DNA of 64,000 bases from Providencia rettgeri (lineage in GTDB: Bacteria > Pseudomonadota > Gammaproteobacteria > Enterobacterales > Enterobacteriaceae), in NCBI RefSeq assembly GCF_013702265.1, contig NZ_CP059348.1:1860001-1924000 (forward strand), written 5' to 3'. Below, one piece after another: positions 11,946-32,502 of the stretch (positions are counted from its first letter, which is position 1; the number at the start of each line of letters is the position of its first letter). The notes under the pieces are model-generated. The model saw only the letters and a list, made by a program, of their open reading frames with translations. It did no database searches and was not told where the DNA came from. The translations under genes were made by a program, and so were the position numbers.

Positions 11946-12070
11946 GCAGGTGAATGCAACGTTGAGCGATGAACGTTGTGCTCCATAATTGTAGTTTTTC
12001 TCATATTGAGTTCTTATACAGAATAATTGACCACTGTAATGCCGATGTATTTTACATCGGCTTTTTTTTT
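11946..12070 (+). ncRNA. fnrS: FnrS, FNR-activated small RNA
   Basis: The 5' end GCAGGTGAATGCAACG and the following GCGATG...CGTTG...GCTCCAT segments match E. coli FnrS, an Hfq-dependent sRNA that represses aerobic-metabolism mRNAs under anoxia. It ends in the terminator GCCGATG-TATTTTA-CATCGGC followed by ten T. Length is about 125 bases (about 122 in E. coli). Position just after zntB, as in E. coli, and the correctly spaced FNR box support the call. Confidence 0.93.
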
Positions 12071-16175: not shown

Positions 16176-16349
16176 TTAAATTGTATTTTATGTATGGATT
16201 GATGGGATTTAAAATTATTATTTATCATTGAGTTATCTATATATTCTGGCATTGAATATATTGTTAAATCCATATTGATTATTAAAATAATCGTAGTATC
16301 TATGAAAAAAACCTTGCTATACGTAAGGATGTATGAGTAAATGCACTCA

Positions 16350-16524
16350 TCGGTTTGGAAGTACAGACCTATTTATGAAAGCAAGTTTTGAAAAGTTCCC
16401 CCGTCTAGCGTTATCCTATAGATACCCATTCGTAGTGAATTCCTTCTAATTAGTTCCATAAGTATCAAGAAAAATCAAACCTATATGCCATGTGGCAACA
16501 ATTAAAAATTCAAAGGAATTCAAT
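16350..16524 (+). promoter_or_regulatory. cspA-type cold-shock thermosensor 5' UTR
   Basis: The leader begins with CGGTTTGGAAGTACAGACC, nearly identical to the E. coli cspA cold box, and later carries GATACCCATTCGTAGTG and a CGCCATATCGCC-like CATATGCCATGTGGC element in the same order as the cspA leader. In E. coli this about 160-base leader refolds at low temperature to expose the ribosome site. Length here, from about 16350 to the ATG, is about 175 bases. Confidence 0.85.
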
Positions 16525-16737
16525 ATGTCTAATACAATGACTGGTTTAGTAAAATGGTTTAACGAATCTAAAGGCTTTGGCTTTATTTCTCCTGAAGATG
16601 GAAGCAAAGATGTGTTTGTTCACTTTTCTGCAATCCAAAGTGATAGCTTCAAAACCCTTAATGAAGGGCAAAAAGTCAGCTTCTCAGTAGAAAATGGCGC
16701 AAAAGGTCCAGCTGCTGTAAATGTAGTGGCACTTTAA
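16525..16737 (+). CDS. cspA: CspA-family cold-shock protein
   Basis: 70-residue single cold-shock domain that binds single-stranded RNA and DNA as an RNA chaperone. RNP1 (KGFGFI) and RNP2 (VFVHFSAI) are present, with aromatic residues in [15 protein letters not shown]. The ATG at 16525 (MSNTMTG), not an upstream in-frame ATG, fits the AAAGGAATT ribosome site and family length. The cspA-like leader supports a cold-inducible CspA role; the exact paralogue cannot be settled from this window. Confidence 0.93.
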
Positions 16738-16883
16738 GATCGATATCTTTATGAGATGTCCTTGAGATAAAGACACTCTATCATTTTGAAGCAACCTAAA
16801 GTAACCATTCCGGTGTTAAATGTACTTTTGCAAAAGTACTATGAAAACTTAGACGTGTTAGTTACTTGATTGGTTATTATTAA

Positions 16884-24905: not shown

Positions 24906-25003
24906 AAAAAAAAGGCCAACTCAAATGAGTTGGCCAGCTAAACTGGAAGCAATGTGAGCAATGTCGTTGTGAAAAGACCGAGTAATTTACTCAACTATTC
25001 ACG
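24906..25003 (-). ncRNA. candidate minus-strand small RNA of about 98 nt
   Basis: On the minus strand GGCCAACTC (24927-24935) pairs with GAGTTGGCC (24914-24922) and is followed by eight T (24906-24913). Upstream on the same strand, TTGATT (25033-25038) and TATCTT (25010-25015) are 17 bases apart, predicting a start near 25003. The 5' part can form a GTGAA/TTCAC hairpin. Both neighbours run on the plus strand, so the terminator has no protein-gene owner. It did not match an enterobacterial sRNA I recall. Confidence 0.45.
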
Positions 25004-31453: not shown

Positions 31454-31471
31454 TTGTCATAATATTGTCAC
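31454..31471 (+). promoter_or_regulatory. Pho box upstream of phoH
   Basis: TTGTCATAATATTGTCAC consists of two seven-base repeats separated by AATA, the PhoB half-site layout (CTGTCAT-N4-CTGTCAT). A TAGTTT -10-like hexamer follows ten bases later (31482-31487), predicting a start near 31494. phoH is a PhoB-regulated gene in E. coli. Confidence 0.8.
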
Positions 31472-31515
31472 GCAGATTCTTTAGTTTACGAGTATCGCCT
31501 TTATAGGAGAAACTA

Positions 31516-31626
31516 ATGAGAACTAGGTGTTTGTTAATCAATATGCGAAACCGGTTACCACTCCATCATGAAACTGACATGATGAGATTGCTAACCGGTT
31601 TTTTTATACCTGAATTATCAACCTAG
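31516..31626 (+). CDS. 36-aa leader peptide of phoH (candidate)
   Basis: ATG at 31516 behind ATAGGAGAAACTA, an excellent ribosome site about 22 bases from the predicted start of transcription. The product MRTRCLLINMRNRLPLHHET... is basic, with six Arg and a His pair. The frame runs through both arms of the terminator at 31548-31605 and stops at 31624, so its translation must affect that hairpin. It is either a regulatory leader or a real small protein. Confidence 0.6.
   Translation: MRTRCLLINMRNRLPLHHETDMMRLLTGFFIPELST
31548..31605 (+). terminator. terminator/attenuator inside the phoH leader
   Basis: AAACCGGTTA (31548-31557) pairs with TAACCGGTTT (31592-31601) followed by T4, and the loop holds a second stem (CATCATG/CATGATG). 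It sits within the leader frame and about 110 bases before the phoH start. Transcription of phoH from the Pho box promoter must pass it. Confidence 0.75.
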
Positions 31627-31716
31627 GCAACACAAGAGCTTGAAGGGAGCTCCTCTCTGTTTTGAATAGTTCGTCATCTGAAATTGACATCATCGATACC
31701 TGGAAGGGTTAATACT

Positions 31717-32502
31717 ATGAGTAGACAGAAAGCTGCAACAAAAGCACGTCGTGAAATGAAACGTACATCACGCAAAGACCGTTCAGGGAGGTATGATATG
31801 AACAACGTTACCTCCTTCGCTGAGTTTACAGGCATTGAGCCGATAGGCATGGCGAAAGAACGTCGCGATGAAACTCCAATAGCACCACGTAATGAAGCCC
31901 AGAAGCTCTATATTAATTCCATCAAGCACAAGCAGTTGATTTTCGCTAACGGTGAGGCAGGGTGTGGGAAAACTTATATCAGTACTGCATTGGCTGCGGA
32001 TGCCTTGATTAACAAGGAAATTAGCAAAATCATTGTCACGAGACCCGTGTTGCAAGCGGAGGAAGATCTTGGTTTCTTACCGGGAGATATGTCTGAAAAG
32101 TTCGCGCCTTATTTCCGACCTGTTTATGACGTATTAATGAAGCGATTAGGCGCTTCGTTCCTACAGTATTGTTTACGCCCTGAGATTGCTAAAGTTGAAA
32201 TAGCGCCATTTGCTTATATGCGTGGTCGCACATTCGAAAATGCGATTGTGATCCTCGATGAAGCACAGAACGTCACAGTCACTCAAATGAAAATGTTTTT
32301 AACTCGTTTGGGTGAGAACGTAACGGTAATTGTAAACGGTGACGTGACCCAATGTGATTTACCAAGCGGTGTTCAGTCAGGTTTAGGGGATGCGTTACAG
32401 CGCTTTAGTAGCGATGAAATGGTCTCGATGGTCAATTTCACGATTGATGATTGTGTGAGATCTCAGCTATGTCACAAGGCCCTGCTGGCTTACAATGACT
32501 AA
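31717..32502 (+). CDS. phoH: PhoH, phosphate-starvation-inducible ATPase
   Basis: 261-residue cytoplasmic P-loop ATPase related to the N-terminal half of superfamily I helicases. Walker A is GEAGCGKT (residues 79-86) and Walker B VILDEAQN (178-185); DVTQCDLPSG follows. It aligns throughout with the E. coli PhoH start GRQKA.IKARRE. The ATG at 31717 (MSRQKAATKARR) follows GGAAGGG. RNA-directed roles are suspected for the family. Regulation: Pho box, then leader peptide and terminator. Confidence 0.95.
   Translation: MSRQKAATKARREMKRTSRKDRSGRYDMNNVTSFAEFTGIEPIGMAKERRDETPIAPRNEAQKLYINSIKHKQLIFANGEAGCGKTYISTALAADALINKEISKIIVTRPVLQAEEDLGFLPGDMSEKFAPYFRPVYDVLMKRLGASFLQYCLRPEIAKVEIAPFAYMRGRTFENAIVILDEAQNVTVTQMKMFLTRLGENVTVIVNGDVTQCDLPSGVQSGLGDALQRFSSDEMVSMVNFTIDDCVRSQLCHKALLAYND

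Follow-up and report, generated by a model that had tools for sequence, protein, structure and literature searches.

phoH is a classic gene of the Pho regulon. In E. coli it is bound and activated by PhoB, and the accessible sections of that study mention no leader control (PMC10294691). Among described leader systems, the pyrBI operon of E. coli has a leader ORF (pyrL) lying over an intrinsic terminator, which is repressed by a closely following ribosome (PMC4824070; PMC3641672; accessible sections of both). According to the accessible sections of PMC4824070, the Rho-independent terminator tR2, near a stop codon in E. coli, is repressed by a translating ribosome that covers its hairpin, and this repression is abolished when translation is uncoupled. 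When placed less than 100 bp into a coding region tR2 is efficient, the ribosome being unlikely to have caught up, and early terminators are described there as efficient unless polymerase pausing couples ribosome and polymerase, as in pyrBI. Attenuators of the trp/his type also combine a translated leader with an intrinsic terminator; they use stalling codons and an antiterminator. In these systems the terminator follows the leader gene at a distance of more than 20 bp (PMC4824070, accessible sections). The mgtCBR leader, with its ORFs mgtM and mgtP, combines the promoter of a starvation regulator with translated leader ORFs and an mgtM peptide that is not conserved (PMC3641672, accessible sections), and employs alternative stem-loops, conserved adenines, and proline codons.

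The phoH locus of Providencia was analyzed within a stretch of 64,000 nucleotides (the window; positions 1,860,001–1,924,000 of a 4.02-Mb single-contig genome), and its leader has elements in common with each of these systems. The phoH-leader unit is present as one copy in the genome, and phoH is flanked by an endonuclease I gene on one side and a siderophore-interacting protein gene on the other. The features of the locus, in order along the + strand, are:

31454..31471, + strand: Pho box TTGTCAT-AATA-TTGTCAC, read from the sequence; presumed PhoB site and −35 substitute
31482..31487, + strand: −10-like hexamer TAGTTT, read from the sequence; weak consensus match
31505..31509, + strand: leader Shine-Dalgarno AGGAG, read from the sequence
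31516..31626, + strand: 36-codon leader ORF (ATG 31516, stop TAG 31624–31626), overlapping the terminator
31547..31605, + strand: predicted intrinsic terminator (stem 31547–31602 with an inner hairpin; run of seven T at 31599–31605)
31636..31652, + strand: hairpin H1, GAGCUU-GAAGG-GAGCUC with AAGG in the loop, between terminator and phoH
31702..31708, + strand: phoH Shine-Dalgarno GGAAGGG, read from the sequence; near-identical across the genus alignment
31717..32502, + strand: phoH, 261 aa, PhoH family (Pfam PhoH PF02562, E 3.2e-76)

The original prediction, made from the letters of this window, had claimed a 7-4-7 Pho box, a −10-like hexamer, a 36-codon ORF with a strong ribosome site, a Rho-independent terminator with both arms inside that ORF, and phoH about 110 bases further on. 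All are found at the positions listed, with the phoH ATG 111 nt past the terminator T run, though the hexamer agrees with TATAAT at only 3 of 6 letters; similar letters occur at that place in most of 24 aligned genomes of the genus. An exact match to TGTCATNNNNNTGTCA occurs in the 64-kb window at the Pho box site only, with one mismatch allowed there are two matches versus 1.54 expected, and exact TGTCATN5TGTCA is likewise found once, at the Pho box. Scored over 11 fixed letters, the best Pho box match in the 66 terminator-bearing leaders described below has no mismatch in 46, one in 17, and two in 3, so that 63 of the 66 carry the 7-4-7 box of the Pho regulon with at most one mismatch; in a control coding stretch of all 68 loci the best match has 3–6 mismatches. 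From these matches we infer that phoH of Providencia is driven by PhoB at the predicted Pho box. A scan covering sigma-70 type promoters alone gave no promoter-like site on the + strand from the terminator to phoH.

The terminator has a calculated energy of −25.7 kcal/mol; its shuffles average −7.7 (z −7.2), and none of 200 is as good. When the 263-nt leader was dinucleotide-shuffled 300 times, hairpins tailed by TTTTT appeared at or below −10 in 21 cases, at or below −15 in 5, and never at or below −18. Both the minimum-energy and the centroid fold of the window leader, the one sequence folded, retain it. A simple terminator scan does not list it, probably because that scan is limited to uninterrupted stems with loops no longer than 8 nt. 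The terminator presumably functions in the cell.

Relatives were compared at the same locus, with the genus names Providencia, Morganella, Xenorhabdus, and Proteus assigned via leaders identical to those of named records (within the genus of the window, Providencia alcalifaciens, P. rustigianii, P. vermicola, and P. stuartii). phoH is present in 24/24 Providencia, 6/6 Morganella, 18/30 Xenorhabdus, and 20/20 Proteus genomes; the other 12 Xenorhabdus genomes have only a paralogue of 45–46% identity. By a rule requiring a TTTTT-tailed hairpin with an energy limit of −10, a terminator lies in 66 of the 68 phoH leaders (−18.2 to −37.4 kcal/mol), a count that spans related species with shared ancestry uncorrected. 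The stems vary by genus, with a CCGG-like base common to most. The compensatory stem changes that the original prediction had proposed looking for are seen in Providencia and Xenorhabdus: both-side changes occur in 3/23 pairs of the Providencia terminator (19 closer sequences, 96.8% of cells pairing) and in 12/23 pairs of the Xenorhabdus terminator (16 sequences, 92.6%), these percentages not being independent evidence, as the aligned hairpins were preselected as stable, whereas the variety of pair types is. The alignments comprise 19/24 Providencia and 16/17 Xenorhabdus terminators, identical or near-identical ones being omitted. The covariation score was reached by none of 500 shuffles for either genus, and sliding the partner by 1–3 columns brought pairing down to 25–55%.

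Both exceptions are atypical loci. The leader of L069 is identical to that of Morganella psychrotolerans L190 and retains both terminator arms, with a long palindromic stretch in the middle that makes it about 90 nt longer than the L071 hairpin; its leader frame is open through the 5′ arm. In L089 (Xenorhabdus) leader, Pho box, and terminator are replaced, by a sequence that appears transposase-like by eye. Further afield, the phoH leader of Arsenophonus nasoniae has a hairpin of −23.2 inside a 44-codon ORF running through it, with no recognizable Pho box, and that of Photorhabdus namnaonensis has a hairpin of −12.7, a mismatch-free Pho box, and a 31-codon ORF through the hairpin. As far as sequences can tell, the predicted feature is real, conserved, and of wider spread than the original prediction could tell.

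Rfam 15 gave no match in the phoH leaders scanned (the whole window at gathering thresholds; six loci at E up to 1). Elsewhere in the window it matched the cspA thermoregulator (16349–16781), frnS (Fumarate/nitrate reductase regulator sRNA; 11946–12065), and RyhB (24907–24973). In the E. coli locus L067 there is a naRNA4 match further upstream than the phoH leader, and Ysr251, which we take to be a Yersinia antisense sRNA family, matches the phoH coding region of L067 (1914–2107) and of five other loci; in genera other than Yersinia these matches may reflect only conserved coding sequence.

A ribosome site with an ATG, assigned by rule, is found in 64 of the 66 terminator-bearing leaders of the four genera, the two without a recognizable ribosome site being L080 and L087 (Xenorhabdus). 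The hairpin begins 28–39 nt past the leader ATG and not downstream of the ORF, unlike the terminators of amino-acid leader attenuators. Within genera this distance is nearly fixed, at 31 nt in 23 Providencia leaders and 32 nt in one, 28 nt in four Morganella leaders and 30 nt in one, 31, 32, or 39 nt in Xenorhabdus, and 35 or 36 nt in Proteus. The leader frame, again counted over related species with shared ancestry uncorrected, is open into the hairpin in all 64 leaders, its stop lying past the hairpin in 49, within it in 15, and ahead of it in none, whereas the alternative frames have a stop ahead of the hairpin in 51/64 (+1) and 37/64 (+2). In two of the 15, L021 and L091, the ORF ends in the 5′ half of the hairpin, where a ribosome at the stop should still cover some of the 5′ arm.

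What is encoded is far less constant. The ORFs range from 13 to 67 codons, and peptide, length, and stop position are not conserved across the four genera, between which the peptides have nothing obvious in common; the window peptide has no Pfam match. Codon variants ahead of the hairpin are 6 synonymous to 22 nonsynonymous in Providencia and 2 to 12 in Proteus, with no excess of synonymous change over the approximately 25% expected. The original prediction had made its case depend on conservation of leader frame and stem in related genomes: open frame and terminator are kept (64/64 and 66/68), and peptide and codons are not, so the codon conservation it had proposed looking for was not found. 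The conserved ribosome site and ATG, with an open frame but no peptide conservation, suggest that the leader is translated, and selection appears to maintain ribosome movement into the hairpin and not a peptide product. Since peptide, length, and stop vary and most variants are nonsynonymous, stalling at specific codons is unlikely, and the preferred signal is the proximity of the ribosome; sensing by peptide or codons was dropped as the main reading on the difference of the peptides between genera and the lack of a synonymous excess.

We propose that phoH is controlled by a transcription attenuator that works by ribosome occlusion of the leader terminator, a reading to which we assign a probability of roughly 0.6. 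The PhoB promoter would give rise to a leader RNA equipped with a start codon and a good ribosome site, and about 10 codons past the ATG its frame would run into the intrinsic terminator, a strong one, at the 5′ arm. A lead ribosome close behind RNA polymerase would cover the 5′ arm during synthesis of the 3′ arm; with the 5′ arm covered, the hairpin would be blocked and transcription would continue into phoH. Where translation is absent or lagging, the hairpin would form and transcription would stop approximately 110 nt into the message, counted from a start placed by the promoter letters. Neither an antiterminator nor special codons would be needed, as in pyrBI. Because the predicted folds of the window leader (one sequence) keep the terminator and show no competing antiterminator, direct occlusion is the simplest mechanism by which leader translation might relieve it.

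The trigger may be a polymerase slowed by low NTP or high ppGpp in phosphate starvation, which would then supply both PhoB activation and, presumably, the slower polymerase, giving a dual response to PhoB and to coupling. The terminator hairpin ends 75–104 nt past the leader ATG in the four genera, and given the efficiency of early terminators in the tR2 study, transcription probably terminates by default even when the leader is well translated, with read-through probably needing a slowed or paused RNA polymerase. The original prediction had the terminator melted by translation and transcription ending when translation fails; it relies on the same physics but sets the default the other way round.

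The efficiency of early terminators also bears on a simpler reading, that the terminator is a fixed brake that only lowers the output of the Pho promoter, with leader translation incidental. Early terminators escape ribosomes in the published system (PMC4824070, accessible sections), and neither a common base run nor special codons were found as a basis for regulation. A brake, however, needs neither a ribosome site and ATG nor a near-fixed ATG-hairpin distance, all of which are kept in four genera amid peptide drift, nor a frame that is closed ahead of the hairpin in none of 64 leaders, and we consider it unlikely. Less probable still is that the terminated transcript acts in trans as a PhoB-induced small RNA, the ORF making it a dual-function small mRNA or being a by-product. 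With a length of about 110 nt, a strong 3′ hairpin, and a tail of seven U, this transcript is shaped like an Hfq-type small RNA. Upstream of the hairpin, though, only the Shine-Dalgarno, the spacing, and the ATG are common between genera, with no seed seen by eye; the scanned leaders have no Rfam match; and the unit stands in front of phoH in 66/68 loci.

Between terminator and phoH lies the second conserved element, hairpin H1, which a strict rule finds in 118 of 128 phoH leaders, roughly 75–180 nt before phoH, versus 2/128 and 4/128 in two control stretches. These counts were taken over 75 nt of start positions in the test (130 in Xenorhabdus) and over 55 nt (coding, slightly narrower) and 75 nt (upstream) in the controls; among the hits, the one in L089 belongs to the replacing sequence and the one in L150 is doubtful. 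In a gap-free alignment of 12 H1 hairpins with five-base loops, both-side changes occur in 4/6 pairs and the covariation score was reached by 0/500 shuffles; the 100% pairing in this alignment is by selection, the rule itself requiring pairing. H1 is possibly a protein or ribosome contact. Two other interpretations of this block were set aside. A second small peptide, SLKGAPLCFE, does not hold, as the leader ORF reads through in some Providencia, the frame differs in others, and Morganella has ATG-GCT-TGA there; with its frames inconsistent, this stretch makes better sense as an RNA element, H1. Pseudoknot pairing of the H1 loop AAGG with a CCU was rejected by eye, the partner not being kept.

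In a sample of 148 genomes of the order, phoH at E 1e-60 was found in 7, all in one family (f1). Besides the four genera, the comparison took in a further 60 genomes of the same family that carry phoH; 56 of them have a leader ATG by rule and four have none; the choice is rule-based, with that of L165 (8 codons) spurious and about ten marked "other" less certain. L165 excepted, the leader ORFs have 53–118 codons, and the remaining two frames mostly close early. At the terminator's place, a hairpin ending near −112 has a mean z of −1.6 over the 60 genomes (20 shuffles per genome) and falls below −1.5 in 33; at least five T in the nine bases after it are found in 19/60. A TTTTT-tailed hairpin at or below −10 lies within 420 nt upstream in 12/60, in 10 of them at the terminator's place. 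Outside the Morganellaceae, a terminator is an option and not a finding. C minus G is +0.085 in the 56 leaders versus −0.070 in 25 coding stretches and −0.026 in 56 upstream stretches, which is no more than suggestive of Rho control of these leaders.

E. coli phoH, although PhoB-bound and PhoB-activated like its Providencia counterpart is predicted to be, differs in having a fused leader ORF, a weaker hairpin, and a competing fold. In L067 the leader ORF (positions 1048–1323) is in frame with phoH and lies upstream of the annotated gene, for which RefSeq gives a 262-aa PhoH; its hairpin alone has −15.1 and a UUUUC tail, and is absent from the best fold of a 65-nt piece. In E. coli-type leaders, among them L067 and L037, the ORF has a ribosome site, GGAGAUCGCGAAUGGUA, that lies by eye between two small hairpins, GUGA..UCAC before it and GUCC..GGAC after it, an arrangement that, by eye, looks conserved and regulatory.

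A tentative extension, which we consider less likely than not, is that the phoH attenuator is ancient across the Enterobacterales, E. coli included. Leader translation would prevent premature termination everywhere, at an intrinsic terminator in the Morganellaceae and at a weaker hairpin and/or a C-rich, Rho-prone stretch elsewhere; H1 would be a second control point, and PhoB together with polymerase slowing would form a two-input gate.

The E. coli locus also raises the possibility that PhoH was ancestrally a longer protein with its N-terminus in the leader ORF, a state we take to be represented by an E. coli long form of about 354 aa, and that this was broken in the Morganellaceae. Among the 56 leaders outside the four genera, 16 do have a leader ORF that runs in frame into phoH, as does E. 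coli L067, but in the remaining 40 it either stops short of phoH or runs over the phoH start in a different frame, it is fused in 0/64 Morganellaceae leaders, and ribosome site and H1 are kept amid peptide variation. We regard this origin as very improbable. The long PhoH is presumably an older annotation of the E. coli gene, which fits the fused leader ORF; its N-terminus may instead be a regulatory leader annotated as protein.

The comparison returns to pyrBI. Like it, the phoH leaders have an intrinsic terminator over which an ORF with a ribosome site extends. They differ in their Pho box promoter, in the gene controlled, in the presence of H1 downstream, and in having no U-rich run ahead of the hairpin. 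No homopolymer run between Shine-Dalgarno and hairpin is common to the genera: of the 24 Providencia leaders, 20 have three T as their longest run and two have four or five T, and T makes up the longest run in only 1 of 40 Morganella, Xenorhabdus, and Proteus leaders. Sensing of UTP or ATP via a base run was rejected on this ground. The alternative stem-loops, conserved adenines, and proline codons of mgtCBR are not seen in the phoH leaders, nor was a regulatory codon run of the kind kept by trp/his-type leaders found in the four genera; with no regulatory codons and its terminator inside the ORF, the phoH leader is not a trp/his leader. That it senses a specific nucleotide or amino acid in the pyrBI/UTP or trp/his style is the most improbable reading of all, since the pyrBI-like anatomy and an ATG-to-hairpin stretch of 34–42% A, which could recall the mgtM adenines, stand against the lack of any U or A run or repeated codon common across genera, the 9% T of that stretch in Morganella, and the frequency of A-rich early codons for other reasons.

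The original prediction had known of no attenuator described for phoH, and the literature search, which had the accessible sections of PMC10294691 and PMC5464674 in its scope and older subscription work mostly outside it, likewise found no attenuator or other leader control of this gene. Nothing in the literature searched connects a phoH leader with Rho-dependent termination or term-seq, and for CsrA, considered as a possible binder of H1, titles and abstract openings gave no link with phoH. The design preferred here, occlusion of an early terminator by a coupled ribosome, is known from pyrBI; the phoH example, which has no U run of the UTP-sensing kind, is so far undescribed in that literature. 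The mgtCBR case demonstrates that translated leader ORFs, one of them with a non-conserved peptide, can be part of a starvation operon (PMC3641672, accessible sections). If ribosome occlusion operates at phoH, the leader would be a clean natural case of such attenuation in which the peptide is irrelevant, and this additional, conserved level of control, responsive to the coupling of ribosome and polymerase, would tell when the cell wants PhoH.
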